A stretch of DNA of 64,000 nt from Pedobacter panaciterrae (GTDB taxonomy: Bacteria; Bacteroidota; Bacteroidia; Sphingobacteriales; Sphingobacteriaceae): contig NZ_JABMKW010000020.1 in assembly GCF_013204795.1 (NCBI RefSeq), positions 1,550,001-1,614,000 of the forward strand, given 5' to 3'. Of this stretch, positions 16,773-60,048 are shown in pieces (positions within the stretch are counted from its first letter, which is position 1; each line of letters begins with the position of its first letter). Position numbers and translations under genes: made by a program. Under the pieces are notes generated by a model. That model was given only the letters and a program-made list of their open reading frames with translations. It ran no database searches and was not told the origin of the DNA.

Positions 16773-16778
16773 AAAAAA

Positions 16779-17804: not shown

Positions 17805-17814
17805 AAAATATTCT

Positions 17815-19266: not shown

Positions 19267-19269
19267 AAA

Positions 19270-21591: not shown

Positions 21592-21617
21592 ACAATATCT
21601 ATTTGGTTTCAATTGTA

Positions 21618-38291: not shown

Positions 38292-39401
38292 TTATTTATC
38301 TAATTGGTAAAGCTTTATAGATCTGAGTCTGAAATACTGATCGTTATCTATAAATGTCGCTACGAAACCTACAGTAACAGGAGACTCAGTAGGTACAGCA
38401 AATGCTGTAGTGAACTTTCTTGGTGCTCCGGAATCTGGATTTCCGCTTGATTTTGTATAGCCCAAAACAATAGGATTATTTTCAACTTTATCAACATCAG
38501 GTATTTCTCCTCCCTTTGCAATTACAGTATAAAACAAATTCTTCCATTGGTATCCTACAAAATCCAGCGTATAATAATATTGGCCTGCCGGAAGTGGTTT
38601 TAGCGTTGTCTGCTGAATTTTTCCGTTAATGATATCTGGTTCACCACCCCATGACTCCATCGACATACTATTTCCATCCCATTCGTCCCAGCCACCCATA
38701 CCACCATCGCGTTGTAATACCGCAGCATTCACTCTCCAATCCGCTACAATACCCCATCTACTTCCAAACCTGGCCGATGGAACAAATTTAGGACCAACAT
38801 TCAGCAAATAATCTAAAGTGATATCTTTTACTGTTCCATTACCTGTTACCAATTTAGAAACAGTAAATACAGATCCTTTTTCAGTCGTCACCTTTAACTT
38901 GGCGGTATATAAATTACCGGCCCCATACTCTTTAATTGGAGTTGCCTCTTCAGAAACAGCTGATCCATCTCCGAAATCCCACGAGAAACTCTTCACGGTA
39001 ACTTTCGAAGACTTAACACTAAATTTCACCTTGTTACTACCCTGACTTGCAGCAATAAAATTTACAGCACTGTCCGGTATAATTTTAATAAGGACCACTT
39101 TTTTTGCAGTAGACCCATCCTCAGCTATTGCTGTTAAGTTGACTTCAAAGGTACCAGCACTAGCAAATATATGTTTTGGAGTAGTTTCATAGGAAACACT
39201 ATCGTCACCAAAACGCCATTCAAGTTTTTTATATTCCTTGGAATTATTCTTAAAGTCAAAGGTAAACGGATCATCTCCCGGAACAGCCTCAAAATCCACA
39301 AATGGTCTTTTCTGTTCAGCTGGTTCAACTTCAATGTCCTTACTTTTAGAACAGGAAGCGAAAATAACTATGCTTAATAGCAAAATAAAAAGTTTGTTCA
39401 T
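38292..39401 (-). CDS. PKD-domain surface lipoprotein
   Basis: A 369-residue lipoprotein (SPII signal ending IVIFASC, Cys17). Residues about 30-110 and 112-195 form two PKD domains, seen from KLEWRFGDDSVSYETTPKHIF and SFSWDFGDGSAVSEE. The C-terminal half (WRVNAAVLQRDGG, AGQYYYTLDFVGYQWKNLFY) resembles the DUF5013-type ligand-binding domains of SusE/SGBP-like proteins. Last gene of the eleven-gene lipoprotein cluster. Likely a surface glycan-binding protein, by context. Confidence 0.8.
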   Translation of the reverse strand: MNKLFILLLSIVIFASCSKSKDIEVEPAEQKRPFVDFEAVPGDDPFTFDFKNNSKEYKKLEWRFGDDSVSYETTPKHIFASAGTFEVNLTAIAEDGSTAKKVVLIKIIPDSAVNFIAASQGSNKVKFSVKSSKVTVKSFSWDFGDGSAVSEEATPIKEYGAGNLYTAKLKVTTEKGSVFTVSKLVTGNGTVKDITLDYLLNVGPKFVPSARFGSRWGIVADWRVNAAVLQRDGGMGGWDEWDGNSMSMESWGGEPDIINGKIQQTTLKPLPAGQYYYTLDFVGYQWKNLFYTVIAKGGEIPDVDKVENNPIVLGYTKSSGNPDSGAPRKFTTAFAVPTESPVTVGFVATFIDNDQYFRLRSIKLYQLDK

Positions 39402-39499
39402 ACTATTTAAAGTTTGGTATATTTTTTAAACAACAGCGATGATTAAATTTTAGCCACCGCTGCTGTTGATTGGTTTATTTTTATGTATTTACAAAATAA

Positions 39500-40948
39500 T
39501 TATTTCTTTCTGGTAAATATCCATCCCCTCACATCATAAGCACCCACATTCATATAGAATTTCATGATATGTCTTCCTTTCGTAAGCTGAACTGTTGTTC
39601 TATTTGGTTGCTGATCTCCGTAACTACCAGGTGTTTTGGCAGATGCTAGTATCCCTGTAATATTTACATCATCAAAGAATACACTGTACCTTCCATTATC
39701 TCCTGGCGCACCGATTAGGGAGTTCAACTCATACTCTCCGGTTTCCTCCACATTAACAGTATAGGTCAACCATTCACCATCAGAAGTCCATCCTACTACA
39801 CTACGTGGAGTATAGTCACCCACATCAACATTATCATTTGGTCGGTAATCACCAACACCATCTTTACCGCCCGTATCGTGGAATGCAATTCCTTCACCGC
39901 CAAAATCGTACTGTGCAGCAGGAATCATATCAGAAACAGCACCAATAGCTCCTTTAATAAGGAAAGGGGTCCCATTATAAGGCCTAAAATGATCCGGATC
40001 AATAACTACCACTATGCTTTTTTTCGTTTCATCAAGTTGGAATTTAGATGGGTTTCTAAGTAATAGTCCTATTGCAACTTTTTTCTTGGTGTTCTTCAAC
40101 AATTCTGAAATTCTGGCAGTGAGTTCAAGTTTTGCGCTGTTCTCATTAGGAGCAAACTTAACTTTTGGATTAGTAAGTGCATAGCTACCTGAACTTAATA
40201 CAACTGTATTTTTAAGCGTTCCGTTATTTATGAGTGCAGTTACTAATGCATCATTAGGTACCACATCCACTGTAAAATCGGAACCTGCAAGTCCTGCAAG
40301 AGCAAGATTTAGAGGTATCGTCAAATCTTGTGTGCCAATTTCATAATTTGTTCCATTTGGCACCAGATAAGGAGAGCCAGCCGATGCAAATGAGATATAG
40401 TGTACATCTTCAGCGGCAATCGCTTCTGCAGCATTAATAACAACTATAACGGCATTCTTATTGGCCTCAATTGCATTTCCTTTAGATGGAGCTGAAATTT
40501 TTATCGCCAGAGCCAATAACTTGCTATGGTTTCTCTCAACAAAACTTCTGCTTACCGCCAGATTAAAAGTTGTACTCTTTATCCCATATGCAAAATCAAT
40601 CACCGGAGGAAAATTAAACGTTTGTTCGGCCAACGCTATAGTTCCAGCAGGTAATGTCCCACTACCAACCAGTGTAGCAATAGTATCTAAATTAGATGTA
40701 ACCTGCACATTGAAAGCCGTTCCAGATGCACCGGATAAATTGATCGTTACTGGAATAATTAATTCATCGTTGTTTAATGTAAAATTTTCGCCACTTCCAA
40801 TATCAATTCTATTTTCCACACTAAGCTTGACATTAGCAACAGTCTCCTTAGCGAGCACTCCTGATAGCTTTTCCTTTTCACATGACATCATCAGCATAGC
40901 TGTAATTGCCAAAAGGCATAAATGTACAGTAGTAAATATTCTTTTCAT
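39500..40948 (-). CDS. Lipoprotein with two DUF1735-like domains and a CBM6-like domain
   Basis: Start placed at 40948 (482 residues) so that the lipoprotein signal MKRIFTTVHLC to LMMSC (Cys23) is N-terminal; the longer frame upstream overlaps the neighbouring gene. Two successive DUF1735-like beta domains are visible (about 30-165 and 170-325), the second marked by DLTIPLNLALAGLAGSDF. The C-terminal 150 residues look like CBM6: YDFGGEGIAFHDTGG, VVGWTSDGEWLTYTVNV and GRHIMKFYMNVGAYD. Surface sugar binding is the expected role; no catalytic domain is present. Confidence 0.82.
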   Translation of the reverse strand: MKRIFTTVHLCLLAITAMLMMSCEKEKLSGVLAKETVANVKLSVENRIDIGSGENFTLNNDELIIPVTINLSGASGTAFNVQVTSNLDTIATLVGSGTLPAGTIALAEQTFNFPPVIDFAYGIKSTTFNLAVSRSFVERNHSKLLALAIKISAPSKGNAIEANKNAVIVVINAAEAIAAEDVHYISFASAGSPYLVPNGTNYEIGTQDLTIPLNLALAGLAGSDFTVDVVPNDALVTALINNGTLKNTVVLSSGSYALTNPKVKFAPNENSAKLELTARISELLKNTKKKVAIGLLLRNPSKFQLDETKKSIVVVIDPDHFRPYNGTPFLIKGAIGAVSDMIPAAQYDFGGEGIAFHDTGGKDGVGDYRPNDNVDVGDYTPRSVVGWTSDGEWLTYTVNVEETGEYELNSLIGAPGDNGRYSVFFDDVNITGILASAKTPGSYGDQQPNRTTVQLTKGRHIMKFYMNVGAYDVRGWIFTRKK

Positions 40949-41018
40949 ATCCTTAAATATATAATCATCTTTAAATAGGTTTTCAGGACTTACGTTATAA
41001 AGTCCTGAAAACCTTAAA

Positions 41019-42800
41019 TTAATTTGCAATCCAAACTCTACCGTCCAATGCCCAATTTTCTTGCCTTGGAATATTAAACCAACTTAATATTTGCGTCGGA
41101 ATGTCAGAGTTTTTTGGAACTAATACACCTAAGTTTGTGTTACTCGGAGAACACATTAAATCTGTGAATTTTTCCCAGCTATAAGCCCCTTCTAATATAA
41201 AATTAGCCTGAAAGGGTCCAATATCTTTAAGTGTTCCTCCCGTTCCATCAACCATAGGCCAGTAACCCACTAAATAATCGTACGTGGGATGACTGTCATC
41301 CATAGTAGGGTCACAAGAATATTGCTTTATCACTGTTTCTGATAGTGCCGTCTTCCATATTTTCAATTCAGCCAACTGTACATTAATTACTCCTCTATCG
41401 CCATTAACATCTCCTCCAACATAACCAACTGTTAAAGGGTCATTGTTATTATAGTTTGGAAATCCGGATAATCTAAAGTCATTTAAAGTAGGTTTTGCGG
41501 CACTTGCACCATCTTTATTCGTAATACCTTTAACCCCATCGGTATACAATCTGATATATCTTCTGCCATCTGCTTTTTTCTCTATAACAAATGTCAAGTC
41601 GTGCCAGGTATCACCACTAAAGTCTAATCCGCCAACCTCATCACCATTTGAGTTGTCCTGACCACCAGCTCCAAAGAAGCGCCATCCATTGTAAAACAAA
41701 CAAATATTCCAGCCTGCCTGTCCCCAACTGCTATTATTTCTTTTACCTAATACCGATGGCCACTCATACCAGTAGTCGCCTTTTGAAGTATTCTTGGTTT
41801 TGCCTTTTTTGATTTTCACAGAAACGGTAAAATCTGCATCAGCGCCAAAGTTAAACTCACTATTAGCAGATCCTTGAACTACCCCCTTAATCCTTTCTGG
41901 ATCACCTTTAAATCTGATTGCTGAACCGGAATAGGTATTTCCCAAAAATGGTCTCGCAATGAAAGTAGGGTTATACTTATTGTTATAAATTATAGTAAAG
42001 GTGTTGATATTCGTGTTACTAAAAAGAGTTTTATCATCTTGTTCTACAGGGAGTGTAAATTGTCCCCCCTTATTAGAAGTTACAATAACTAACCAGTTCT
42101 CCTTGTAGTAAGTAGGTCTTGATTTTAATGAAGCTAAAATTTCACCAACCTGACTATCAAACTTATTAATAGCCGCTTTATATGGCGCAAAAGAATTGTC
42201 AAATCCAGAAGCTTTTCCTGCCTTCTCAACACCGCCAAACTGTCCAACAATCAGAGATGCCGTATCAGTTTTCACAAATTCTACCAATCTTGAAGTTACA
42301 GCATCGTCGTTTCCACCAAATGACTCTGTAACGTCTGCCCCTTCGGTTAACTTACCCTTAAACACATCAGATGAAGCAAAAGATGCTATACGAAAACCTG
42401 GCCTCAACGATTTAATACGTTCAAATATAACCGGATAATTTTCGAGTTTATTACCAGCAAAATCCTCCGATAAAACGTTGTGTTTCTCCTTTTTTACTCC
42501 CGTCAGCATATCTGTCCAATTTGTTGCGTCGGTATAATTAGTATTATCACTTAATCCGGTCCAGGTATAAACTGCACTATCAATAAGGGTTCTTAATGTT
42601 GGAGTTCCAGCATCTCTAACTGACGTACCGCGTGCACCATCTACAATAAGGTAAAGAACCTTAGGAACTTTATAGGTAACGCTGCCATCATTATCAGGCG
42701 CATCTGGTATTACTTTATCAAAATCCTTATTACAGGATGTTGCAAACACCAGCAAGCATAGTGTTAGACTAACAAAATATTTGAATTGATGTTTTTTCAT
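41019..42800 (-). CDS. Alkaline-phosphatase-fold lipoprotein with lost metal ligands, fused to LamG-like domain
   Basis: Start set at 42800 (594 residues), giving a lipoprotein signal (FATSC, Cys23). Residues 43-320 follow the phosphodiesterase/nucleotide-pyrophosphatase pattern: VLYLIVDGARG with Asp54, and DATNWTDMLTGV with Thr93 in the nucleophile position. However, the canonical D..GH motif reads GQFGGVEKAG (186-195) and the SDHG motif reads TSNKGG (241-246), so most zinc ligands seem gone. Residues about 330-590 are a concanavalin-like LamG/DUF4983-type domain (GWNICLFYNGWRFFG, LAELKIWKTALSE). Probably a binding protein rather than an enzyme. Confidence 0.75.
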   Translation of the reverse strand: MKKHQFKYFVSLTLCLLVFATSCNKDFDKVIPDAPDNDGSVTYKVPKVLYLIVDGARGTSVRDAGTPTLRTLIDSAVYTWTGLSDNTNYTDATNWTDMLTGVKKEKHNVLSEDFAGNKLENYPVIFERIKSLRPGFRIASFASSDVFKGKLTEGADVTESFGGNDDAVTSRLVEFVKTDTASLIVGQFGGVEKAGKASGFDNSFAPYKAAINKFDSQVGEILASLKSRPTYYKENWLVIVTSNKGGQFTLPVEQDDKTLFSNTNINTFTIIYNNKYNPTFIARPFLGNTYSGSAIRFKGDPERIKGVVQGSANSEFNFGADADFTVSVKIKKGKTKNTSKGDYWYEWPSVLGKRNNSSWGQAGWNICLFYNGWRFFGAGGQDNSNGDEVGGLDFSGDTWHDLTFVIEKKADGRRYIRLYTDGVKGITNKDGASAAKPTLNDFRLSGFPNYNNNDPLTVGYVGGDVNGDRGVINVQLAELKIWKTALSETVIKQYSCDPTMDDSHPTYDYLVGYWPMVDGTGGTLKDIGPFQANFILEGAYSWEKFTDLMCSPSNTNLGVLVPKNSDIPTQILSWFNIPRQENWALDGRVWIAN

Positions 42801-42855
42801 ATTCTTTAATTTATAATTCATTTGGTTCATGTCTGGATTATATGTATTAATATAA

Positions 42856-44463
42856 TCAATTTTCTAGTGTTACCCTAATAATATTATTCGTCTCTATGTT
42901 ATCAAAAACAAAGAATGAACCCCCAATTAATAACGCTCTCTTATTATCTGCAGATTTCGTTTCAAAGACATTATTTATCCTACCTAACAGGTTACCTACG
43001 TTATTATATCCTTCTGCAATTTCCCCCTTGTCAGTTGTAATAAGAAAGCCTTGTCTGTTCACCCCATCGTAAGTTTTAAAATACCCCCCTATTAAGCATA
43101 AACCATCACTAAGCTGTTTGGTGAAATTAGGATACCCCCCAACAAACTTTTTAGGAACAAACGATTGATCAACCGAACCGTCATAATTCAGCATAACCAA
43201 ACTTTCTGATGCAACCCCATTAAATTTCTTAAATGTTCCGCATAACAGATACTTCTTGGTCGTCTCATTATAACTTGCATAGTTTACGATAAAATCCGCT
43301 CCTGCTCCTCCTGGATTGAATGTTGCATCTATTGTTCCGTCTGCGTTTAAACGGGTAACGTATCCAGCCGAAGCATCATCAAATTTGGTGAAATTGCCAT
43401 AAACCAAAATCTTCCCGTCGGTGTGCATCAATGTACTGATATACCCATTAGATCCCGGTAAACTCTTACCTTTAGCACCCCCATAACCGGTCGCGTTAGG
43501 ATCGAATCTCCATGTTTTATCTAAAGTTCCATTTGGGTTAAAACGTACCAGTTGGCGCACGTCAACTGTATCAATAACTGTACTATCTTTTAACTGTCTG
43601 CTTGGTTGATCATAGCGGCGAGACAGATAATACTTGAAGTTTCCCGATGCTATAATCTTATTATTAAATGCATATATTTCTGTAATAGCTGCGTCCGTTC
43701 CACCATTAAATGTTGGAACATATATCAGTTTTTTTGTATAAGTCTCAACCAACATGGTGTCAACAGTTCCCTGGTTACTTACCCTGGTTATATTATTAAT
43801 GCCCCCTCTCTGTGCATAGCCGCTAAAAGCACCCCCAAGATACCATTGGCTATTTACAACGGCCATCCCGTAAAGGTCGCCATTTGCAGCGTCTCCGCTC
43901 AGCAATGAACGGTCCCAGGTTCCATCCGGAAAAGTCCTTACAATACGGTTAATTCGCTTCACTATCCCCTTATTATCATAGTTCGTAAAACCGCCCAATA
44001 ACAATAAGTTACCTCCAGCTACCTGATAAAACTTACTAATAAAACCATTTGTACCGGCTACTACTTTAAAGGTAGGGTCCTTTTTAACAAATCCGGTAAC
44101 TGTAAAGTTCGGTCCAAAAACCAGCTGTCCATCAATAACAAAAGACGTAACTCCCGAACTGGCTCTTCCTGGCACTTTCGCTTTGATTCCGGTTTCAGTA
44201 ATCTCCGTAATCTCTGCCTTTTCACCATTAAACAGAAACTGAATCTTATCTTTATGAGGTACTAATCCTGTCGCTTTAAAGGTAATTACAGTTCCTGCCA
44301 TTCCAACTGCGGGAACAGGTATTTGCTGGCGATCAATCTTAATTCCCAAAGGTGCTATACCACCCTGATATGGATCTTCAAATGAAGTTTCCTTTTCTTT
44401 ACAGCCACTAAACAATGCTGTTACAAGGATCATTGACAGACTTATATATTTAAAAAATTTCAT
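42856..44463 (-). CDS. Lipoprotein with TIG/IPT domain and delta-60-type propeller repeats (DUF5008-like)
   Basis: A 535-residue lipoprotein (signal to LFSGC, Cys21). Residues about 40-125 form an IPT/TIG immunoglobulin-like domain (IDRQQIPVPAVGMAGTVITF). The rest consists of repeated blades with the delta-60 pattern, such as RFNPNGTLDKTWRFDP, RLNADGTIDATFNPGG and MLNYDGSVDQSFVP, each followed by a GGxF-type strand. It is likely a rigid surface-exposed propeller. It resembles DUF5008 proteins of Bacteroidota that accompany SusCD pairs. Function unknown. Confidence 0.75.
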   Translation of the reverse strand: MKFFKYISLSMILVTALFSGCKEKETSFEDPYQGGIAPLGIKIDRQQIPVPAVGMAGTVITFKATGLVPHKDKIQFLFNGEKAEITEITETGIKAKVPGRASSGVTSFVIDGQLVFGPNFTVTGFVKKDPTFKVVAGTNGFISKFYQVAGGNLLLLGGFTNYDNKGIVKRINRIVRTFPDGTWDRSLLSGDAANGDLYGMAVVNSQWYLGGAFSGYAQRGGINNITRVSNQGTVDTMLVETYTKKLIYVPTFNGGTDAAITEIYAFNNKIIASGNFKYYLSRRYDQPSRQLKDSTVIDTVDVRQLVRFNPNGTLDKTWRFDPNATGYGGAKGKSLPGSNGYISTLMHTDGKILVYGNFTKFDDASAGYVTRLNADGTIDATFNPGGAGADFIVNYASYNETTKKYLLCGTFKKFNGVASESLVMLNYDGSVDQSFVPKKFVGGYPNFTKQLSDGLCLIGGYFKTYDGVNRQGFLITTDKGEIAEGYNNVGNLLGRINNVFETKSADNKRALLIGGSFFVFDNIETNNIIRVTLEN

Positions 44464-44509
44464 ATGCTTATCTTAAATTATTTCTATTAATATTTTAACT
44501 ATTATAAAT

Positions 44510-45286
44510 CTATCTGCTAAACATTACGTCATTATAAAAGTCAGCATTAAACCCAAATACATTTGCAGAAAAGTCATTCGGAGCTTCTCCTATTGGAGTA
44601 CCTACACTAACAGCCAGTACATGTACAACACCATTACTTGGTTGTATATCCGATGATGCAACCGCCGCAGTCGCAAAATTACTAGGGTTTGATGGATCCC
44701 ATAAATAAGAAATAGTTAATTGGCGGTATCCAACATACTTAACTCCATTTACGGAATTATATACAACACCGATGTTTGCAATATCCCTATCGTATGTGTA
44801 ATAGTATGATCCCGGAAACAATTCCCTCAAATTAAAATCAACCTGAGGATAATCTTTTAACCTATATGAACCTTTAAAAATGTATCTTCCTAAAAATTTC
44901 CTCCATATTTCAGGCTGTACATCCGAAAGGGTTTTCAAAGTATCTCTTCCCGTGTCGAACAACAATTGATTTAATCCACCCTGCAATTCGCGAATGGGGG
45001 TATTTACCAAACCAATAGTGCGTCTGATCACCTCATCTGTTGGAGCAAAGAAAGTGATGTTTTCATTTTTGAAAACATCTTCCATACCTGCCAGCTTAAC
45101 AATTTGAGCAATAGTGTCAAATTTGCTATTCGACTCCAAATACTGCATTATATTCCCATTAAAAACCGGATTGGCTTTACCACCATCATTATAATAGTCG
45201 TCTTTTTTACAGGAACTTATTACCATTGCCAGCAAAATCAATAATATTGCCGTCGGTTTAAAGTATCGTTTAATAATATTTTTCAT
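44510..45286 (-). CDS. Fasciclin (FAS1) domain lipoprotein
   Basis: A 258-residue lipoprotein (MVISSC, Cys26) with one FAS1-like domain: IMQYLESNSKFDTIAQIVKLAGM, NENITFFAPTDEVI, then a divergent H-box and a C-terminal SNGVVHVLAVSV, which matches the family's final strand. FAS1 domains usually mediate adhesion or ligand binding. It follows SusD by 21 bases. A second FAS1 lipoprotein is encoded at 51321-52520 in the same relative place behind the other SusD. Confidence 0.85.
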   Translation of the reverse strand: MKNIIKRYFKPTAILLILLAMVISSCKKDDYYNDGGKANPVFNGNIMQYLESNSKFDTIAQIVKLAGMEDVFKNENITFFAPTDEVIRRTIGLVNTPIRELQGGLNQLLFDTGRDTLKTLSDVQPEIWRKFLGRYIFKGSYRLKDYPQVDFNLRELFPGSYYYTYDRDIANIGVVYNSVNGVKYVGYRQLTISYLWDPSNPSNFATAAVASSDIQPSNGVVHVLAVSVGTPIGEAPNDFSANVFGFNADFYNDVMFSR

Positions 45287-45307
45287 GTATTTATCTATTA
45301 TTTAAAA

Positions 45308-46930
45308 TTAAAGACCTGAACCAATCCAATAGTTATTTAAACTCATCTTAGGATTATTGAACAATGCGTTTGGATGAATTGGCCAGGTCCAACCACCCCT
45401 GTTAAACTTATCTGAAGTCAATGGATTATCTGTCCACTCTTTACTTAATACTCTTTTAGTTCTTACCAGGTCAAAATAACGACTTCCTTCTCCCATCAGT
45501 TCTTTAGATCTTTCCAGAAAAATTGCATCTTTCAAATTTGTATCTTTACTTCCGGTTGGGTACGACGGAGCCAAAGCCCTTCCCCTTACAATATTTAAAC
45601 ACTCTATTGCTATCGGATCTTCAGGATTAAGATTAGCCAATGCCTCTGCACGTAACAAAATAGCATCACTATAGCGCATAATTAAATATGTATTGTCTGG
45701 ATTCAAATCCAAATTAGGATTGTTTGCATCTGCGAATGTATTTAATGCAAATTTCCTTAACTGAAAGGTTGACGCATTTTGATCAAATGGAGCAACAAAC
45801 CAGATCGTTAATCTTAAATCTGATTCATCCGGATAAAGTTTTCTCATATATTCTGTTGAAAATACAGAGTAGCTATATCTGTGAGTATACTCAGGTTGCT
45901 TGTATGGGAAATGGATAAATGCATCTCCAAAGGGCGAATATGCATTAGCCTGCGCAAATGGGTCATTCAAATCCTGATTGTAATTCAGTGTTCTGAACAA
46001 TTCAAAAAGACTTTCCTCAGAACGGCCCTTTACAACTTTAGCCCATTCACCTAGAGGAAGCAGACGAAAAGCTTTACTGTCCATAATCTCTTTTCCCAAT
46101 GCAGCTGTTTCCTGATAATATGAAGTTTTATTAGCAATATCAAACCCTGCATTCCACATATTCATATTCATCAATAAACCTATTGCTGCACCTCTGCTGG
46201 CCCTCACACCCCTCAAAGATGGATCAGTAAAAGTTAACGGTAAATCATTTCTAAAATCTTTAAGATCAGCAATGCAATTATTTATAACAGTTACCATATT
46301 TTCTCTTGGCAGAGGATCTTTTTGAAAGGCATCAGTATAATAAACTACATCCCCAAATAAGCGAACCATCTGAAAATAACAAAAACAACGAATAAATTTG
46401 GCTTCAGCTTTATAGCGCTTAGACTCTTCAGGAGTAAGGGCCTCAATACCATCATCAATTTTGCTGATCATAAGGTTGGCGGATTGTATAACTTTATAAT
46501 ACTCGTCCCATCTGGTTAAATTGCCAAAGTTATAGCCAGACCAAGGCTGCCCATCGAGAATCGCGGCCAACAGGAGTCTGTCGTTAACAGTTGTTAAAGG
46601 AACATTCTGCTTATCGGTACTTCCCTGAGGGTTTGGCGTTTGCCTGGTATGGCCACCGATTAGTCCTGAGGCGGAACGACCGGCGCCACCTTCTGCCGCA
46701 GGGATTACCTCTCCCGAGCGAAATTCTCCTGTTGCTCCAGCAAAAGCTGTTCGTGTATATTTATCAAATAACTCACCATACATATCGGTGATATTTGCTT
46801 CCATATCCTCCCTGGTCTTGTAAAAATTATTTCCTGTAAGTTTATCTATGGGAGTAATATCCAAAAATTTCTTACAGCCATATTGTGAAGCGCTTACAAC
46901 AATAAATAAGCAAATAATATATTTTTTCAT
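45308..46930 (-). CDS. SusD/RagB family lipoprotein (second pair of the cluster)
   Basis: A 540-residue SusD-family lipoprotein (Cys19 in SQYGCKK). It shows DITPIDKLTGNNFYKTREDME at the N-terminus, the TPR-containing core AEAKFIRCFCYFQMVRLFGDV, and the C-terminal signature RSKELMGEGSRYFDLVRTKR. It is 24 bases after its SusC partner. The ligand is not known; the operon has no glycoside hydrolase to hint at it. Confidence 0.93.
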   Translation of the reverse strand: MKKYIICLFIVVSASQYGCKKFLDITPIDKLTGNNFYKTREDMEANITDMYGELFDKYTRTAFAGATGEFRSGEVIPAAEGGAGRSASGLIGGHTRQTPNPQGSTDKQNVPLTTVNDRLLLAAILDGQPWSGYNFGNLTRWDEYYKVIQSANLMISKIDDGIEALTPEESKRYKAEAKFIRCFCYFQMVRLFGDVVYYTDAFQKDPLPRENMVTVINNCIADLKDFRNDLPLTFTDPSLRGVRASRGAAIGLLMNMNMWNAGFDIANKTSYYQETAALGKEIMDSKAFRLLPLGEWAKVVKGRSEESLFELFRTLNYNQDLNDPFAQANAYSPFGDAFIHFPYKQPEYTHRYSYSVFSTEYMRKLYPDESDLRLTIWFVAPFDQNASTFQLRKFALNTFADANNPNLDLNPDNTYLIMRYSDAILLRAEALANLNPEDPIAIECLNIVRGRALAPSYPTGSKDTNLKDAIFLERSKELMGEGSRYFDLVRTKRVLSKEWTDNPLTSDKFNRGGWTWPIHPNALFNNPKMSLNNYWIGSGL

Positions 46931-46954
46931 GTCTTATTAGTTTTGTGACTTCAA

Positions 46955-49900: not shown

Positions 49901-50158
49901 TTTTGTTCCATAACTTACATATGTAAATACTAAAGTTGCACCATCATCAACACTTACTGAATAATGGCCTTTGCTGTCAGTTTGAGTAAGTACTTTAAGT
50001 GGCTTACCGGTGGCAACACTAACACCTACCATTGTATCGTTAGATCCGCCATCTTTTACTGTACCACTAACAGTTACCTTCTTTGTTTGCGCCACCAAAT
50101 CCTTGCATAGAAAAATGCAGCTGAAAAAAATCGATAGCAGAATTACTTGTTTTCTCAT
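46955..50158 (-). CDS. SusC/RagA TonB-linked receptor (second pair of the cluster)
   Basis: Start taken at 50158 (1067 residues, MRKQVILLSIFFSCIF) for a proper signal peptide; the frame opens 24 bases earlier. A carboxypeptidase-D regulatory domain (VTVSGTVKDGGSNDTMVGVS, then SKGHYSVSVDDGATLVFTYV) precedes the RagA box EEVVIRGYQKRTREVTTGS and the plug (LYVIDGVPMDADK, IEVLKDATATALYGSRGAYG). The barrel ends in VYNLGFNVEF. No STN domain. Note the box reads VIRGYQ instead of VVVGYG. Confidence 0.94.
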   Translation of the reverse strand: MRKQVILLSIFFSCIFLCKDLVAQTKKVTVSGTVKDGGSNDTMVGVSVATGKPLKVLTQTDSKGHYSVSVDDGATLVFTYVSYGTKTIKLNAGQTTLNVTLKEDNKTMEEVVIRGYQKRTREVTTGSSFIVSGKEVQDVPVSNVEQLLQGKVAGLNIQLNTGAPGLRGTINIRGLSTISTTGSGNETFLQPTSPLYVIDGVPMDADKASEYGFQQQGPGVSPISLIPQEDIASIEVLKDATATALYGSRGAYGVILIQTVRGNSAVPRIRYTGNFYMNAIPKLRSILGGNAERELKLYQINTYGRFRDQYMVSNTPFLADSLNPYYNNSTDWQGVFYQNTYNQTHNVQLDGGDTKFSYKTNLSYFSDKGIIKNTGFDRYSLNMNMDYKPTERISFFGSIRGNVGKIKKANGVGLLQTGVAADGQKSSLLPGPSFFQATSSVLSALQTNTDAGPKNLNTYIEGRYELIPGLNLTSAASYDYNVDTEDTFTPAAANDQFAKIYSFYGYTSQLYNRNNVSYTRSLNEKHNFFLNLFSEMYIKKGQSSITRLERSPNDQFQGPLGYDGYYSRGGGILTSFYDQNQISFAAAFTYDFEKKYIFDLTYRIDGTSNNGNKEPYSKNPSVGLKWNFNKENWLKDLKWLNYGDIRVTAGRNIFPVGNLIDIYGKYIPRGFYNNNPRVGIDYEYVPNPLLRPKKVTQFNLGFDLGLFNGKLDVIFDTYYKKVDNELFVSQLSNTLAFSKYTSNDAALANYGYELSFTSRPLAKDSKFNWTISVNGAWNNDVLTKLPEEYNGQFIEFDFNSGYSQHLAKRIGRNSLANYLYVNQGVYDSTNDVPIDPVTGLRYRNNDSGDFLNSFQGGDARFYDANGDYVLDSRDLQVVGNTQPVLTGGMSNTLSYTMPSGSTLSLNIYATYTAKRSILNNALADRLRLLNNPFGIKDGVYGKNPLTVVPVNDLNMWTGPGSTNARFANAYDYAHNAFANNYRYEQTLWMETGSYFKINQITLSYSFAKKMARRIGLNNIRTFLSASNIVTFSPYTGPNPEGVTAIGRDGSNGYPVPRVYNLGFNVEF

Positions 50159-50184
50159 TGTATTAATTTTTATCATTAACATTT

Positions 50185-51288
50185 CTATTCGTCTTCAAAT
50201 TTTGGATTCACAGTTTTAAAGTGAAATACAATTTCCCAATCACCTTTTTCATAAATGGCAAACTGCTGTGAAATCACACCTTGCTCTCTGGCACCGCCAA
50301 ATCCTCTTCGCGAATAAACAAACTCAACATATGCTGTAGATCCGCCCAATGTGTTTGTTATGCCACCCGCTGTAAACCTTGTCGGAATTCTGGCAACAGG
50401 GATTGGGTATGCAACATCAAACTTTACGTATTCGCTTGTTCTTTCCATATTAAAACCATGCACCAGTTGATCCCATTTAGTTTCATTAAACTTGGCCGGA
50501 TTTATCGCTACTGAATCTTTATTCAAAAACTTAAATCTTAATGAATTGCCAGTTCCACCGGGTACTTTTCTGATATATGTATATACAACTCCTTTTAACC
50601 CGCCTCCATTCGCAAACAAATCATCATTGGTTCCCTCACCTTTCATCCCGGAAATATTGGGATAATTGTGTTGTAAAGCAGTTCCATTTGGTGTGGTGGT
50701 ATTAGGCTTACCGGTAAATTTGTTAATATCTTCTGCAGGGAAATATGGTATCTCTCTATATGGAATTACAGAAAGGTTTTTAATAATTCTCGTTCCCCCT
50801 GAATTCTTAACCTTCACATCGAAATATCTGATATCCTGAGGATAAGTTACAGAATCCCGGGGCTTAAAGACTTCACTTGTAGCAGAAGGCCAAAGAATAA
50901 TATCACCAGAAGGTCTTACCTCAAGCATCGGGCGTTCTTCAATTTTCCTTTTTGCGTCAATTTCGGCTACACTCTTTTCATTTCCTGTATACTCCTGGGT
51001 CCACACCAATACCGGTTTTTTGGCCAGCATATCTTCCGCCGACCTTCCATCTCCAAACCTTGCATTTACAATTTCAAAGGTCATAGGGGCTGAGGAATTA
51101 TCGGGATTAAAAATGCCCTGATATAAATTTAGCCTACCCAAAGTCGGAGAAAATTCTGTCATGGCATAAGTCATTTTAGTGCTTAAATAATCCTTTTCTT
51201 CAGGCAGATCAAAAATCTTCCTGCATCCCGAAAAAGCAATTATCATGGCCAAAAATAGAACTACTCTATATTTTAATATGTTGTACAT
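50185..51288 (-). CDS. DUF5007-like lipoprotein
   Basis: Start placed at 51288 (367 residues) so that MYNILKYRVVLFLAMIIAFSGC is an SPII signal with Cys22; the frame also has an ATG at 51324 overlapping the upstream stop as ATGA, so coupled translation from there is possible. The mature protein opens KIFDLPEEKDYLSTKMTYA and is beta-rich with no enzyme motifs. It resembles DUF5007 proteins found behind SusD and fasciclin genes in Sphingobacteria, from memory. Probably a surface accessory protein. Confidence 0.7.
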   Translation of the reverse strand: MYNILKYRVVLFLAMIIAFSGCRKIFDLPEEKDYLSTKMTYAMTEFSPTLGRLNLYQGIFNPDNSSAPMTFEIVNARFGDGRSAEDMLAKKPVLVWTQEYTGNEKSVAEIDAKRKIEERPMLEVRPSGDIILWPSATSEVFKPRDSVTYPQDIRYFDVKVKNSGGTRIIKNLSVIPYREIPYFPAEDINKFTGKPNTTTPNGTALQHNYPNISGMKGEGTNDDLFANGGGLKGVVYTYIRKVPGGTGNSLRFKFLNKDSVAINPAKFNETKWDQLVHGFNMERTSEYVKFDVAYPIPVARIPTRFTAGGITNTLGGSTAYVEFVYSRRGFGGAREQGVISQQFAIYEKGDWEIVFHFKTVNPKFEDE

Positions 51289-51320
51289 AACATTTATTAA
51301 TTTAAATTTATCTGTCCTCA

Positions 51321-52520
51321 TCATTTGTAAATTGTCCTAAAGTTCATAGTCCATTCAGACAACTGGAATAAATCATCACCGGTATTGCTCAAGAATACAA
51401 TACGGTAGTGTTGCCAGGCAATCTCATTATTAAAATCATAAACCTTATTCTGGAAGTTAGATTCAAATACCATATCCTGTCTGGTATCTAATACTGTCCA
51501 GTCTGTTCCATTTTGAGATCCTTCAACTCTCCAGCTCTTCGGATTACGAGAATATTCTTTCGAGTCATTTGCAGATGTCAATGTGTAAACATTGGATACT
51601 ACAGGTAAACTAGGGTGCCAAATGAAGTAAACTGGTTTAACATTCTGAACATTAAAGTGACAGATGAACTTAGTTAACACATTATCATCAAACAACTTAA
51701 TGAATTTCTCTCCCGGATTTACCGTTCCATCCTTGTAGTCAGGGTTATTAAATTTAACCTCCATTGTACCAGTAACCGTTTTAAATAAGTTTGTTGGCGG
51801 TGGAATAAACGTAAGTCGTCTTGCAAATTCATCGTATCCAAACACATGATCTGGCTGTATTAAATGTACAATTCCATTTTTCGCCTGAATGTTAACTGAA
51901 CTTGTATAAGCAAATGCCCAGTTCGGAGTAAATACACTTCTTTTAGTATTGGCAAACTCAATCACTTCGGGACCGCCATTTTGCATACCTTGAGCATCAG
52001 CGTATTGGCGTTTTCCATGCATTGGATAATTTCCACGTACACTAAAAAGCTCACGGCCATCTCCCAAAGAAAAATCTGTCGATTTAAAAAGTCCCTTTAC
52101 AATATATCTGGATACCATCGTATCCAAATGAGCACTATCATTTTTTGCTTTTTCCAGATCAGCCAAAGCAGGTGCAAACCCAGACGCTAATTCGGTTAAA
52201 AAGATAGCCCTTTTGCCGTTAGCCCTTCTTGCATCATTTAAATTTCTAATTGCCAGCTGAAAACTTGGGTTAGAAACCGCAAATACAGACACGCTACTAT
52301 CGGTAAGAATACTTTTCATTTTAAGTTTATCAATTACCAGCAACAATGAATCATAAACTCCCGGTTTACTTTTCAGGTAATCATAAATATTTAAGGAAGT
52401 ACCTGGATTGATATCCTGAGTAGAATAATAGCCTTTTTCTTTCTTACAGGCCACTTGAAATATTATGGCACTAAACAAGAATGCTATTAAATATCTACTA
52501 TATAAATTTGATTTTTTCAT
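51321..52520 (-). CDS. Fasciclin lipoprotein with C-terminal discoidin-like domain
   Basis: A 399-residue lipoprotein (IIFQVAC, Cys25). Residues about 40-235 form a FAS1-like domain (SLNIYDYLKSKPGVYDSLLL, SVFAVSNPSFQLAI, NIQAKNGIVHLIQPDHV). The last 150 residues look like an F5/8C-type beta sandwich: GEKFIKLFDDNVLTKFICHF, YSRNPKSWRVEGSQNGTDW and WQHYRIVFLSNTGDD. Discoidin domains often bind galactose-type sugars, so this may be the glycan-contacting subunit of its half-cluster. It starts 16 bases after SusD ends. Confidence 0.8.
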   Translation of the reverse strand: MKKSNLYSRYLIAFLFSAIIFQVACKKEKGYYSTQDINPGTSLNIYDYLKSKPGVYDSLLLVIDKLKMKSILTDSSVSVFAVSNPSFQLAIRNLNDARRANGKRAIFLTELASGFAPALADLEKAKNDSAHLDTMVSRYIVKGLFKSTDFSLGDGRELFSVRGNYPMHGKRQYADAQGMQNGGPEVIEFANTKRSVFTPNWAFAYTSSVNIQAKNGIVHLIQPDHVFGYDEFARRLTFIPPPTNLFKTVTGTMEVKFNNPDYKDGTVNPGEKFIKLFDDNVLTKFICHFNVQNVKPVYFIWHPSLPVVSNVYTLTSANDSKEYSRNPKSWRVEGSQNGTDWTVLDTRQDMVFESNFQNKVYDFNNEIAWQHYRIVFLSNTGDDLFQLSEWTMNFRTIYK

Positions 52521-52536
52521 ATCTATTAATGTTTAG

Positions 52537-54078
52537 TTATTTCCAATAAGAGTTTTGTACCAACTCAGGATTTTGATCAATAAGAGATTGAGCAATAGGC
52601 CAGTAAATACCACCAGAATTAATTAAAGCAATAAACTTCGGATCTCTTTGCACAATTTTATGATACCTAACCAAATCGAACCATCTGTAACCTTCACCCA
52701 TAAATTCCTTATTACGCTCATTAAAAATCGCATCAATAAGATTCCCACTGCGCTCGGGCGAGTACGGCACATAACTACTATTGGTAGCTCCCACATTATC
52801 AACGTTATACCTAAATGCTCTTACTATATTAAGCGCATCAATCGCCCCTTGTCTTTCCCCTAATACAGCCAAAGCCTCAGCTCTCAACAGTGTAACATCT
52901 TCCAGCCTTGTAAAGAGTATAGCACTTGAAAATATTCTGAAAGTTGGGTCTGATGATCCATCCTGCATACATTTTATCTTACTAAAAATTGGATACTTAC
53001 CTAGGAAATTTGTAAAATAAAGCTGAGAGTGAGTAACACCATTACTATCGATATTAAACCTGCCATCATTAGCTTCTTTAAATATGGATAAGATTGAATC
53101 CTTTGGTACAAAAATATCCGGTAGATTTTTATTTACAATTGGCTCTGCAAGTGTAAGTGATTCAATATTACCTACGAATGTGGCATCCTGATGTCCAAAG
53201 ATAAAACCAAATCCCAACAGCTGATTATTATTCTTATCAAAGAAAAGTCCTCTGCGACCTGTAAGATAATCGGTTGGATTATAAGCCATTGCCGCTTTAC
53301 CAAAATTATCAAGCACAATTTTGGTATAAACAGTTACGTCAGCATATTTCCCTTGCCATGCAGCCGCCTGAGCAGCAACAGCATAGGCACTTAATTTTCT
53401 AACCAGGGTTCCATTCCATCTTCCTTCTCCTTCATTATAGTACATCCCCGGTTGCTGAATATCGTTTACACTGTATCTATATGGTAACTGTTCAGCAGCT
53501 GCCACCATTTCGGCCTGAACAAACTCCATAATCGCGTTACGATCTGATCTTTTAACATTTTCAAATTGTCCGTCACGAGATGAGGTAATAAAAGGTACAT
53601 CACCCCATATTCTCACCATGTAGAAGTAAGCAAATGCGCGCAAAAATCTTATTTGCGCTATATCTACAGTCATATTGTTATCCGTATACCTGGCATCTTT
53701 CGCTTTAACTTCTTGGATACGCTCAAGGAAAATATTTGCAGCATTTACAATTGCATAAAATCTTCTCCAATTAGAAAGTTCTTGAACCACTGGATAAGCA
53801 GCCTTCAGGTCATTTCTTATAATGGCTTTCAGATCCTGACGTAAAGGGCTATCAAAATTTCCCATACGCACATCACCATAAATCCAATGGCCATTGTTAT
53901 CTGCTAATGCTGCCCTGGTTAACCCATATACCCCAAGCAGTTTAGCTCTGGAATCTTCCATATTGTTCCAGGAGTTCTGTTCATTTACCACACGGGTTGA
54001 GTTTATATCTAATGCTTTTTTACAGCCACCTGCTACCAGAGCAAAAAAGATAAGACTCAGCAAAACTATTTTTTTCAT
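52537..54078 (-). CDS. SusD/RagB family lipoprotein (first pair of the cluster)
   Basis: A 513-residue SusD-family lipoprotein (LVAGGC, Cys19, followed by KKALDIN). The core motif AQIRFLRAFAYFYMVRIWGDV and the C-terminal signature NKEFMGEGYRWFDLVRYHK are clear. It is 51 bases downstream of its SusC. It is shorter than the other two SusD proteins in the window. Confidence 0.94.
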   Translation of the reverse strand: MKKIVLLSLIFFALVAGGCKKALDINSTRVVNEQNSWNNMEDSRAKLLGVYGLTRAALADNNGHWIYGDVRMGNFDSPLRQDLKAIIRNDLKAAYPVVQELSNWRRFYAIVNAANIFLERIQEVKAKDARYTDNNMTVDIAQIRFLRAFAYFYMVRIWGDVPFITSSRDGQFENVKRSDRNAIMEFVQAEMVAAAEQLPYRYSVNDIQQPGMYYNEGEGRWNGTLVRKLSAYAVAAQAAAWQGKYADVTVYTKIVLDNFGKAAMAYNPTDYLTGRRGLFFDKNNNQLLGFGFIFGHQDATFVGNIESLTLAEPIVNKNLPDIFVPKDSILSIFKEANDGRFNIDSNGVTHSQLYFTNFLGKYPIFSKIKCMQDGSSDPTFRIFSSAILFTRLEDVTLLRAEALAVLGERQGAIDALNIVRAFRYNVDNVGATNSSYVPYSPERSGNLIDAIFNERNKEFMGEGYRWFDLVRYHKIVQRDPKFIALINSGGIYWPIAQSLIDQNPELVQNSYWK

Positions 54079-54129
54079 TTCGTCTATTTTAAATGGTACT
54101 TAATGTTATTTGTCTATGTGTGATATTAA

Positions 54130-57100
54130 TTAAAAATCCATTTTTACACCTAGCATATACGTTCTAGGAATTTGCATTCCGTAACCTGTATCGTAACCAG
54201 TATAGTTTACGAGCTCTGGATCTTGTCCTGTATATTTAGTAAGGGTGAAAATATTATGCACACTACCATAAACATAAAATCTTTCAAGTCTTGGCATTTT
54301 CTTTTTCATCAATTTCGTTAAATCATAACCTAACGACACAGTTCTCAATTTTAAGAATGAAGCATCTTCAAGGAATAAATCCTGATTGGCCTGATAAGGA
54401 GCCGACGAACTCCATGGGTTATACAAAGGGTATTTTGAATAATCTCCCCTTTTTTCCCAGTAGGTAACCTCTCTAACAGAGTTGATGTTATTTAACCCTT
54501 CGCGATTAACAAAATCAAAACGGTTTGCCATTTCCTGATTTATTAGATCTCGTCCTAAATTGAAATACATATTTACACTGAGGGTCCAGTTTTTATATCC
54601 GAAATCGTTATTAAAGCCTCCGGAAACAAGCGGAAGGGCATGTCCGGTCAAGGTTCTGTCGCTATTATTGATAGTATTATCTCCGTTAAGGTCTTTCCAA
54701 ATCGGATCTCCTGCCTTTAATGTAATTGCATTATAGCTCATTTTTTGACCATTTGCTCCCACCGGAACTTCCGCATCGGTATTAAAAATACCTTCATTCT
54801 TTAATAACCAATAGCTGTCTACAGATTCGCCGACTTTTAAAAGTCTGTCACCAACAATCAATTCAGATAAACCACCCGGCAAAGCTTTCAATTTATTTTT
54901 ATTGAAATTTAAGTTAAGTGAAGAAGTCCATGAAACCTTATTTGTTGACGGTAAGATATCAGCACTAATTGCAGCATCAATACCAGTATTTGCAATAGAC
55001 ATACCGTTTCTAATAACGGTAGTGTATCCGTATTCAGCAGCGCCAGGTACACCTAGCAATTGATTTTTATCTTCTTTAGTATATACATCAACTGAAGCTC
55101 TGATCCTGTTTTTTAAGAAAGCAACGTCAACTCCAACATTTAACTGATCCTGATAAGCCCATTCCAGGCCATAAGGAATAGCACCGGCATTATATGGTCT
55201 GGTTAGCGTTCCGAAACCGTTATATCCAGGTGCAATTAAATTACCGGTAAAACCAATAAAGGCGGTATACTGAGGGCCCTGAGCATAATTATCAAATAGC
55301 TCGGCCCTACCCATACGACCTACGCTGGCACGTAAATTCAAATCTGAAACAAAATCGTTCGTTCCAAGAAAATCTTTCTTCATATTCCAGCTTCCAGAAA
55401 AGATCGGTGAATAGAACCATCTATTAGTAGGTTGCTGATTCGAAGATGCATCAGCACGCAACATAGCAGAAAAAGTATAAATTTCTTTATAATTGTAGCT
55501 TGCTTTTCCAGTAAATGAAACCTGATTGTTTCTGGTTTTATCTAAAAATTTCCAAACAAGTTCTCTCCTGAATACAAATGGCTCTAAATAATCACCTCTA
55601 TTCGGATCAGATTGCAACAAATTAAGTTTTACGAAATCGTTAGCTCCTTTATAAGCATATGCATAATTGTATTTATAAGTATCATACTGAAATGAAGAAC
55701 CTACAACGAAGTTAAATGTATGTACATCATTAATCTTCAGATCATACGTTGCCGTATTATCAAAAAACACTCTTCTACTGTACCCATAATAATTTGAGGC
55801 ATAGTTTGTTGTTTGCAGCAACGTTCTTGGATAGAATATATCTCTGTAGCCCTCATTATGATCCAATCCAAAAGTAGAATTGAATTTAAATCTGCCCAGA
55901 TCTATACCCAGACTAACCAATCCTTCAACAATATTAGACCTGTTGTCATCAAATCCTTTGTCAAATTGATCCAGATATTCACCATATTTTAACTTATTAG
56001 GGGCAATTGGTGAACTTAAATCAGGTATGTAGTTCACTTGTGATAACCTATCTCTAACATTCTTATTTCGTTGACGGTCAACACGGTTCGCGTTAATAAT
56101 CGCCGTAAACGCCATCCATTCGGTTGGCCTCATGTTAATCTGAAAGCGAGTATTATAGCGATCTGCACCAGTATTGTCTGCAACGCCACCGCTGGTAGTT
56201 GTACCCACCCCAAAACGGAAGTTAGCTCTATCACTACCACCCGAAATTCCCGCATTTACAGAATAAGCAAGTGCATTACCATAATACCTATCAGTCCAGT
56301 TAGATGGCCCATAAAAGTCATTGTTTAACGAGTCACTTAAATAAAGAGGATAAGAGTCGTTATCAGAGTAACTACCATTGGCAGTATACTTATTGTAAAA
56401 TTGTCTTCTAAAGTCGTTCTCGAACTTACCATTTATAGTAGTTACCGCACTAGGCTGTGCTAAACCTATATATGACTCGAAGTTAATTTTTCTAATTGTC
56501 GAGTTCTTTTTGCTCGTAAGCAAAATTACTCCGTTAACTCCTTTTGGTCCGTAAACAGATGTAGCACCAAGATCCTTCAATATCTGCACAGATTCTATAT
56601 TATCCATGTTGATATTGGCAAGTGTATTTGTTGCCGGACCTATTCTGTCAAATTTAAATTGTTGGATATCGTAAGCAAAAGGATGCTCACCAACTAACGG
56701 TATCCCATCAAGAACAACTAGCGGTTGTGTAGCAAATTGTTCACGTGGCGATACAAGCGGTTGTGATGTTCCGCGGATAAACATGTTCTGAACGGTACCT
56801 GGCTCACCAGATGATTCCTGAACATAAAGGCCAGCAGCCTCACCTTTTAAATACTGCTGTAATGTAATCGCAGGAAAAATAGCGAGCTTTTTAGGATCGA
56901 CATCATTTCCTTTAGATTCTAAAGCCGAAAAAACGGTCCTCTTGGACTTAGGCTGGAAGCGTGTAGTGTCTACTTTAAGTTTGGCAGAATCCTCTTCAGC
57001 AGAATCAGTCTGTTGTTGGAAGCTCATCTTAAAAGAAGAAATATCCGACACACAGGCAGACCTAGCGGCATTGCCAAAAGAACATGTTGATGAACACAAC

Positions 57101-57135
57101 AAACCCAGGAAAGTTATATTTGCAATAAAGCGCAT
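54130..57135 (-). CDS. SusC-like TonB-dependent receptor lacking the CarboxypepD domain
   Basis: A 1001-residue receptor. After a signal region (MRFIANITFLGLLCSSTCSFG) there is only a 60-residue polar linker (TDSAEEDSAKLKVDTTRFQ), with no carboxypeptidase-D or STN domain, before a plug that starts AIFPAITLQQYLKGEAAGLYV. The plug keeps PLVVLDGIPL and VQILKDLGATSVYGPKGVNG and the barrel ends MLGVKMDF. The usual VVVGYG RagA box is absent, which is unusual. First gene of the eleven-gene cluster; about 690 bases of non-coding DNA lie upstream. Confidence 0.88.
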   Translation of the reverse strand: MRFIANITFLGLLCSSTCSFGNAARSACVSDISSFKMSFQQQTDSAEEDSAKLKVDTTRFQPKSKRTVFSALESKGNDVDPKKLAIFPAITLQQYLKGEAAGLYVQESSGEPGTVQNMFIRGTSQPLVSPREQFATQPLVVLDGIPLVGEHPFAYDIQQFKFDRIGPATNTLANINMDNIESVQILKDLGATSVYGPKGVNGVILLTSKKNSTIRKINFESYIGLAQPSAVTTINGKFENDFRRQFYNKYTANGSYSDNDSYPLYLSDSLNNDFYGPSNWTDRYYGNALAYSVNAGISGGSDRANFRFGVGTTTSGGVADNTGADRYNTRFQINMRPTEWMAFTAIINANRVDRQRNKNVRDRLSQVNYIPDLSSPIAPNKLKYGEYLDQFDKGFDDNRSNIVEGLVSLGIDLGRFKFNSTFGLDHNEGYRDIFYPRTLLQTTNYASNYYGYSRRVFFDNTATYDLKINDVHTFNFVVGSSFQYDTYKYNYAYAYKGANDFVKLNLLQSDPNRGDYLEPFVFRRELVWKFLDKTRNNQVSFTGKASYNYKEIYTFSAMLRADASSNQQPTNRWFYSPIFSGSWNMKKDFLGTNDFVSDLNLRASVGRMGRAELFDNYAQGPQYTAFIGFTGNLIAPGYNGFGTLTRPYNAGAIPYGLEWAYQDQLNVGVDVAFLKNRIRASVDVYTKEDKNQLLGVPGAAEYGYTTVIRNGMSIANTGIDAAISADILPSTNKVSWTSSLNLNFNKNKLKALPGGLSELIVGDRLLKVGESVDSYWLLKNEGIFNTDAEVPVGANGQKMSYNAITLKAGDPIWKDLNGDNTINNSDRTLTGHALPLVSGGFNNDFGYKNWTLSVNMYFNLGRDLINQEMANRFDFVNREGLNNINSVREVTYWEKRGDYSKYPLYNPWSSSAPYQANQDLFLEDASFLKLRTVSLGYDLTKLMKKKMPRLERFYVYGSVHNIFTLTKYTGQDPELVNYTGYDTGYGMQIPRTYMLGVKMDF

Positions 57136-57829
57136 AACAGATAATTAAGTATTAACTGATTGAAAACCTTTTTTAATTTGATTTTATAGAAACTAATAGA
57201 TTAAATTTTAGATACACCTATGCCAGATCGCCTGCCAATCGAGCAGATTGAACAGCAACAAGTAAAAAAATTTAAAATATTTTTAAAACGATTTAGCTAG
57301 GTATCTCCGCAACCAACAGATTGCACAGCCTAGCTTCAGCATTTAAAATTGGCATGTTATGCCCAGGAAAAAATTTGTGATTATGTCGTGAGGATTCACT
57401 ACATAGCTTTTTAGTAAAAGTTTGATTCATAGTTTGGCTTATTAGGTTAGTATTTGGTTTCCCGACAATGACTTATGGTGCTAAATCGATTATCTATAAC
57501 AATAATACGAAAGAAAATTTAAATTCCAAATCTTTTACATCATTTTTTTTACACAAAATCACATAAGTGCATTCGATTGCCAAATAAGCCCTATTTAGCC
57601 CATACGCCCATACTATAACGTTATCGTAACAATCGTTTACGTAACAGCATATAGCCATCATCCTCAGGCATATGAAACCGCAAACTTTATACATATATAT
57701 TACATGTATGCTGCAATTATCACGTTGTAGTAATTATTAAAATATAAATACATAAACATGTCCTTTTTAATGAATGAAAATTTGTTATTTTGAATTATAT
57801 TAAAAACAGGCCCCTTACACAAAACAGAT
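57136..57829. other. Divergent intergenic region, 694 bases
   Basis: No convincing gene was found. A 66-codon minus-strand frame at 57494-57694 has poor composition and no family resemblance. The region must contain the promoters of the eleven-gene cluster (minus) and of the pentose-phosphate operon (plus), but no perfect TAnnTTTG element was seen; TTATTTTG about 40 bases before the glucokinase gene is one mismatch away. A tandem dyad lies at 57618-57645. Confidence 0.6.
57618..57645. promoter_or_regulatory. Twin dyad site
   Basis: Two related near-palindromes, GTTATCGTAAC (57620-57630) and GTTTACGTAAC (57635-57645), repeat with a 15-base period; the second contains the perfect palindrome TTACGTAA. 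AACGTT overlaps the first. It lies about 185 bases upstream of the glucokinase start in the divergent region and looks like a cooperative regulator site. Inferred from symmetry only. Confidence 0.3.
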
Positions 57830-58594: not shown

Positions 58595-58598
58595 AATA

Positions 58599-60011: not shown

Positions 60012-60048
60012 CTAAATCACAACCCACACTGCATATAATAACATTCTA

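Follow-up and report, generated by a model that had tools for sequence, protein, structure and literature searches.

An enzyme-free double-SusCD operon of Pedobacter panaciterrae as a variant of a conserved Bacteroidota cassette

We analysed a 64,000-nucleotide stretch of the genome of Pedobacter panaciterrae, family Sphingobacteriaceae (assembly GCF_013204795.1, contig NZ_JABMKW010000020.1, positions 1,550,001 to 1,614,000; "the window"), which carries an eleven-gene cluster with two SusC/SusD pairs. Our best reading, to which we assign a probability of about 0.7, is that the cluster encodes a two-importer capture machine for a pre-digested glycan or glycopeptide. Homology largely resolves the puzzle of importers and binders without an enzyme: the cluster appears to be a variant, lacking enzymes, of a conserved double-SusCD cassette that in gut Bacteroides forms part of a polysaccharide utilization locus (PUL) for plant arabinogalactan.

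The eleven open reading frames (ORFs) lie on the minus strand and fill positions 38292-57135 of the window, as the initial annotation had placed them, with gaps, in operon order, of 51, 16, -4, 2, 24, 21, 46, 25, -11, and 98 nt. Plus-strand genes flank them on both sides, a pirin-like ORF ending at 37939 and a ROK kinase gene starting at 57830, and we regard it as likely that the eleven genes form one operon for outer-membrane capture and import with two SusCD transporters. Domains of the products were assigned with Pfam and NCBIfam profiles, which confirmed those of both SusC and both SusD proteins and of the other products, and detected no glycoside hydrolase (GH), polysaccharide lyase, sulfatase, or peptidase family in any of the eleven (Table 1). 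Lipoprotein signals, read directly from the N termini, are present on nine of the eleven products (both SusD proteins and seven others), in agreement with the earlier count of at least nine. Adjacent susC genes, with TonB plug and SusC/RagA barrel, and susD genes identify a SusCD nutrient-uptake locus, and the carbohydrate-active or other degradative enzyme of which a classical PUL holds at least one is lacking within it.

The gene-neighbourhood search proposed in the initial annotation recovered the order SusC1-SusD1-FAS1-DUF5007-SusC2-SusD2-FAS1-DUF5008 in 112 of 115 related loci, the three exceptions being two contig ends and one locus with interrupted ORFs. The earlier observation of two importers and many binders without an enzyme, a poor fit to the PUL model, is upheld, but the cluster does not stand alone. 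Window-type loci from ten genus codes of the family all contain the SusCD/FAS1/DUF5007 core (20/20), and most hold all eleven positions, with minor variation at the last ones; a second set of loci, with a shorter DUF5007, shares genes 1 to 9 and continues with a 480-710-aa protein and a second phosphatase-fold gene. PDB 3HDX, the solved structure that SusD1 matches best, has a sequence 100% identical to a Bacteroides contig and is probably BT0269. A named scan with this sequence found Bacteroides, a Dysgonomonadaceae metagenome-assembled genome, Sphingobacterium, Mucilaginibacter, Pedobacter, Chitinophaga, Niabella, and others; the Bacteroides cassette genomes were reached in this way, having been missed by the SusD-family search. 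Of 301 genomes sampled from the family, 127 had DUF5007 above its cut-off, and wherever a full-scoring locus was examined this domain lay within the cassette; by these counts the enzyme-less cassette is common in the family. In the cassette tree, the window stands nearest to named Pedobacter and other Sphingobacteriaceae.

Comparison with close Bacteroides genomes and with the published annotation of B. theta VPI-5482 ties the cassette to a locus of known inducer. In Bacteroides (L093, L173, L174, and L176), nine homologous genes come after a 1372-aa gene that agrees in size with the hybrid two-component system (HTCS) regulator; the window and L093/L176 share the order of these nine genes, phosphatase fold included, at 25-44% identity (36% for SusC1, against L093:6923-9856). 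Upstream of the Bacteroides cassette lies a GH43 gene matching solved galactan 1,3-beta-galactosidases and downstream a GH35 gene, and its genes 10 and 11 encode an M60-like protein and a second phosphatase-fold protein. The published annotation gives SusD, hypothetical, DUF5007, SusD, and DUF5124 products within BT0269-75, a carbohydrate-binding BT0277, and an alkaline phosphatase family BT0278 (PMC10434189), which fits the cassette order, the nine genes corresponding to about BT0268-BT0276; the propeller protein of Bacteroides does contain DUF5124. BT0262-90 is reported to be an arabinogalactan PUL (PMC3243724), and its susC BT0268 responds to arabinogalactan through the HTCS BT0267 (PMC6874557; PMC5061871). 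Because of this response and the nine-gene homology, the transport and binding genes of the window have a relative with a known inducer, and homology suggests arabinogalactan as the ligand. A characterised homologous locus of known substrate, which the initial annotation had named as a counterweight to its interpretation, has thus been found in part: the Bacteroides PUL is known, but the literature searched yielded nothing on the roles of the individual proteins BT0270-BT0278, and the window branch lacks the linked enzymes and regulator, with no HTCS, GH43_24, or GH35 gene in the window flanks.

The main difference between branches of the cassette lies in its last two genes. Gene 10 of the sister cassettes encodes an M60-like peptidase (PF13402 down to 8.9e-47), and BT4244, an M60-like protein that has been characterised, acts as an O-glycopeptidase (PMC11992087). 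The HExxH motif is intact in 11 of 15 of these gene-10 proteins and lost in those of Bacteroides, Sphingobacterium FBM7-1, Mucilaginibacter SMC90, and G224, whose cassettes are otherwise intact; the HExxH-less proteins (L173:16785-18902, L187:3130-5253, L177:16153-18174, and L074:16849-18906, the Bacteroides one in the BT0277 position) are likely pseudopeptidases. The window contains neither an M60-like gene 10 nor a second phosphatase-fold gene. Window-type gene 10 instead encodes a DUF1735 protein with a C-terminal F5/8, PA14, or CBM6 domain depending on lineage, and gene 11 a PKD protein (19/19 members) ending in F5/8 in 17 of 19 and in DUF5013 in 2 of 19, the window included. Judged from these domain patterns, the chassis is fixed and its outer binding domains are swapped between lineages. 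In the DUF5007 tree, window-type cassettes form one clade (Shimodaira-Hasegawa-like approximate likelihood ratio test 97) nested among M60-bearing cassettes and adjoined by Chitinophaga and another M60 cassette; since the tree is rooted by midpoint only, M60 loss rather than gain is the simpler, unproven reading. We tentatively propose that the M60 and phosphatase modules of a nine-gene chassis were turned into or replaced by binding modules, yielding a truly enzyme-free, two-channel receptor-importer that would take up glycan or glycopeptide fragments freed by other organisms.

The remaining candidate enzyme, the phosphatase-fold protein of gene 9, appears to be a pseudoenzyme throughout. The window copy matches DUF4983 only, and its Bacteroides homologue matches Phosphodiest (4.1e-07) and Laminin_G_3. 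When 24 homologues drawn from the two cassette types are aligned, the first Asp is the sole metal-site residue retained (24/24), and the nucleophile position and the later Asp/His metal ligands are lost in all 24, so that the window protein lacks the nucleophile Thr/Ser and Asp/His ligands of an alkaline-phosphatase superfamily enzyme. Phosphatase or sulfatase activity of this protein, considered as a candidate, was ruled out by the motif alignment. The absence of catalytic residues in every homologue therefore marks a conserved, family-wide pseudoenzyme rather than local decay, and the initial claim that no hydrolase, lyase, peptidase, or active sulfatase signature is present holds for this product as well.

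Table 1. Genes of the double-SusCD operon and its conserved leader (window coordinates, listed in operon order)
Feature	Start	End	Strand	Evidence
Conserved 5' leader of operon	57136	57430	-	tblastn and DNA alignment with L054, L130, L151, L168, L171
Gene 1: SusC1, TonB-dependent outer-membrane transporter without N-terminal CarboxypepD_reg domain	54130	57135	-	Pfam Plug 2.8e-12 (sole domain found)
Gene 2: SusD1, surface lid lipoprotein	52537	54078	-	SusD_RagB 5.2e-22; PDB 3HDX full length, 5.2e-134
Gene 3: FAS1 + F5/8 type C (CBM32-like) lipoprotein	51321	52520	-	F5_F8 0.0013 alone; family alignment and model
Gene 4: DUF5007 lipoprotein	50185	51324	-	DUF5007 1.2e-58
Gene 5: SusC2, SusC/RagA family TonB-linked transporter with CarboxypepD_reg_2	46955	50182	-	TIGR04056 1.1e-182; Plug 1.6e-18
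Gene 6: SusD2, surface lid lipoprotein	45308	46930	-	SusD_RagB 1.5e-23
Gene 7: FAS1 lipoprotein	44510	45286	-	Fasciclin 6.5e-07; TGFBIp FAS1 matches in PDB
Gene 8: DUF5008 (IPT/TIG-like) + DUF5122 beta-propeller lipoprotein	42856	44463	-	DUF5122 5.2e-24; DUF5008 1e-13
Gene 9: phosphatase-fold pseudoenzyme + LamG-like + DUF4983 lipoprotein	41019	42830	-	DUF4983 1.8e-10
Gene 10: BT_3987-like_N (DUF1735) + CBM6-type lipoprotein	39500	40948	-	BT_3987-like_N 1.9e-08; CBM_6 3.7e-05
Gene 11: PKD x2 + DUF5013 lipoprotein	38292	39401	-	PKD_4 6.6e-20; DUF5013 4e-22

Two of the surface proteins called for evidence beyond the profiles. The window copy of gene 3 is itself weak, and its FAS1-discoidin assignment is secured by the family alignment, in which Fasciclin is found in 16/18 members and F5/8 in 15/18, and by the predicted model; the model (mean predicted local distance difference test score, pLDDT, 67.6) reaches Z 15.0 against the fourth TGFBIp FAS1 domain and Z 14-18.5 against domains of the CBM32 type. 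The AF2 model of the DUF5007 protein (pLDDT 77) resembles, over residues 43-190, at best and weakly a cadherin/Ig-like beta-sandwich at Z 7.5 (VIA matches all at or below 7.5), and Foldseek matches of this model to P2X receptors, with TM about 0.1, were discarded as meaningless. The same genome contains two four-gene SusC-SusD-FAS1-like-DUF5007-like modules, 23-30% identical to the cassette (L088:10278-16711, C7, and L089:2680-9134, C19), which look like single-importer relatives of half of it; a sequence search found no solved relative of the DUF5007-like protein at L088, for which the BT2261-BT2264 complex had been suspected. Gene 10 probably starts at the ATG at 40948, which is followed by the lipoprotein signal, rather than at a TTG at 41029.

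In characterised systems, surface lipoproteins sit on the SusC lip and pass oligomers to the SusCD transporter (PMC7618045), an M60-containing PUL has been proposed to import glycopeptides (PMC11992087), and DUF1735 has been proposed to be a membrane-bound spacer (PMC11216935). By analogy, the CBM32-like, CBM6, LamG, PKD/DUF5013, FAS1, and propeller lipoproteins of the operon would retain a glycan or glycopeptide on the outside of the cell and deliver its oligomers to the SusD1 and SusD2 lids, which would close over two related products for TonB-powered import through SusC1 and SusC2; cleavage would fall to enzymes encoded elsewhere or to other organisms.

The nature of the ligand is the most speculative part of this account, and our leading guess for the window branch, itself doubtful, is a fragment of a galactose-rich O-glycoprotein that resembles arabinogalactan protein. 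Several results weigh against the capture-machine reading and its arabinogalactan link. Searches of the window's genome detected no M60 protein (control positive) and, with positive controls scoring E = 0 to 7e-198, nothing related to the Bacteroides GH43. Strong GH43 matches among 61 genomes of the family occur in 7 of 26 with the window type only, 3 of 15 with the M60 type only, and 0 of 20 without a cassette, a weak association (p 0.014 and 0.07) whose threshold was chosen afterwards and which disappears at looser thresholds; we accordingly rejected this co-occurrence as proof that the ligand is arabinogalactan. The flanks of window-type cassettes have no gene family, and thus no enzyme, in common across at least 3 of about 14 genomes, and the 95 nearest neighbours in 11 genomes include GH92 at two loci, a glutaminase-A-like gene at two, and one gene each of GH78, GH2, GH1, and GH39 at other loci. 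Because individual flanking loci hold GH genes, "enzyme-free" is true of the operon and mostly, not always, of its neighbourhood. With M60 and the GH43 relative undetected and the GH43 association weak, we commit only to a pre-digested glycan or glycopeptide; the initial suggestion, capture of a ligand that others have processed or of a glycopeptide or other macromolecule, survives as the best class of explanation.

The same machine might serve another ligand, a mannose-rich glycoprotein or fungal mannoprotein, with specificity having changed when the M60 module was exchanged for carbohydrate-binding modules. The GH92 alpha-mannosidase genes lie on the same strand as the window-type cassette (L195:15178-17532 in Desertivirga arenae and L200:1015-3432 in G019, two genera) and are a possible clue to a mannose-containing ligand; the glutaminase-A-like genes at two loci also speak for this reading, and the best structural match of the gene 3 F5/8 domain is a GH92 accessory domain (7nsn, Z 18.5, 30% identity). 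GH92 is, however, missing from most flanks, the window's included, with two loci of the 11 surveyed as the whole record, and GH92 genes are common in such genomes; we therefore consider a mannose ligand unlikely. An ordinary PUL with unlinked enzymes, in which the strain degrades the polymer itself using enzymes encoded elsewhere, overlaps with the capture-machine reading, and we place its chances a little short of even. The 6.2-Mb genome has 75 SusD matches, and the nearest GH genes in the window (GH20, GH36-like, and two GH95) lie at 22-32 kb, with GH28 and GH88 genes also on its left side; these are cut off from the operon by intervening genes of opposite orientation, however, and the hallmark GH43 is undetected. 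The GH-rich region also contains, at 14616-21624 (-), planctomycete-type cytochrome (PSCyt1/PSCyt2/PSD1) and DUF1501 genes and an NHL-repeat protein.

Adhesion proteins often contain FAS1, PKD, discoidin, and LamG domains, and the best, weak fold matches of DUF5007 are cadherin-like, which would fit a surface adhesion or matrix-binding system with import secondary; the two SusC/SusD pairs, with TonB plugs in the window's SusC proteins and retained wherever a locus had enough sequence, make adhesion as sole function unlikely, and we hold this explanation to be very improbable. We give still less credence to an organic-phosphorus scavenging SusCD system of the PusCD kind, with the phosphatase-fold protein as receptor for phosphodiester polymers. 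Phosphate-responsive SusCD clusters are known in plant-associated Bacteroidota (PMC8115612), and a phosphodiesterase-fold protein is always in the cassette where that position is covered. Yet catalytic and metal residues are missing from every family member aligned, PusCD loci are co-localised with phosphatases and phosphodiesterases (PMC8115612), none of which occurs at the window locus, and the Bacteroides relative is arabinogalactan-inducible.

In the sister species G284 the cluster sits between the same neighbours (L190, L191) and is therefore a stable chromosomal unit there; its G+C content of 37.4% is close to the 38.5% of the remainder of the window. To its left, glyoxalase-like, esterase-like, and pirin-like ORFs, read from translations, run on the plus strand, and to its right the ROK kinase gene is followed by apparent 6-phosphogluconate dehydrogenase, glucose-6-phosphate dehydrogenase, and 6-phosphogluconolactonase genes (57830-62285, +), also kept in the sister species. 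The leader contains a 45-codon ORF at 57296-57430 (-), which lies 160 nt upstream of SusC1. Its start and stop blocks, together with about 35 nt ahead of the SusC1 ATG (57136-57180), are conserved among Pedobacter relatives and to some extent in a Mucilaginibacter, whereas the central part of the ORF is not. The ORF is a candidate leader peptide or regulatory leader of a cassette without a linked regulator.

Enzymes are the usual mark by which a PUL is recognised, so that a SusCD cassette lacking them can easily escape notice or have no substrate assigned to it. The present comparison connects a group of uncharacterised surface lipoproteins with a PUL whose inducer is known and offers a testable role for DUF5007, DUF5008, DUF4983, and DUF5013, and the series from intact M60 through M60 without its motif to no M60 is a natural one for how degradation and import become uncoupled. 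Among known systems, PusCD loci likewise combine SusCD without carbohydrate-active enzymes with a phosphatase-fold protein, but that of the window lacks the nucleophile and metal-binding residues. Utilisomes, the levan and dextran SusCD complexes, share with the window a SusCD core and extra surface lipoproteins from one locus; they have four components with an active endo-glycanase, whereas the window operon has two SusCD pairs and seven further lipoproteins without an enzyme. The M60 mucin glycopeptide PUL BT4240-50 resembles it in SusCD and a DUF1735/CBM surface binder, and the sister cassettes in an M60-like peptidase, but has one SusCD pair and active glycosidases where the window cassette has two pairs and no M60. 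The best-studied relative is found in the B. theta arabinogalactan PUL BT0262-BT0290 (BT0268-BT0278): the window differs in having no HTCS, no linked GH43/GH35, and DUF1735-CBM6 and PKD-DUF5013 genes in place of the M60-like gene 10 and second phosphatase-fold gene, and shares nine homologous genes in the same order, comprising two SusCD pairs, two FAS1 lipoproteins, DUF5007, the DUF5008 propeller, and a LamG-bearing phosphatase fold without catalytic residues.

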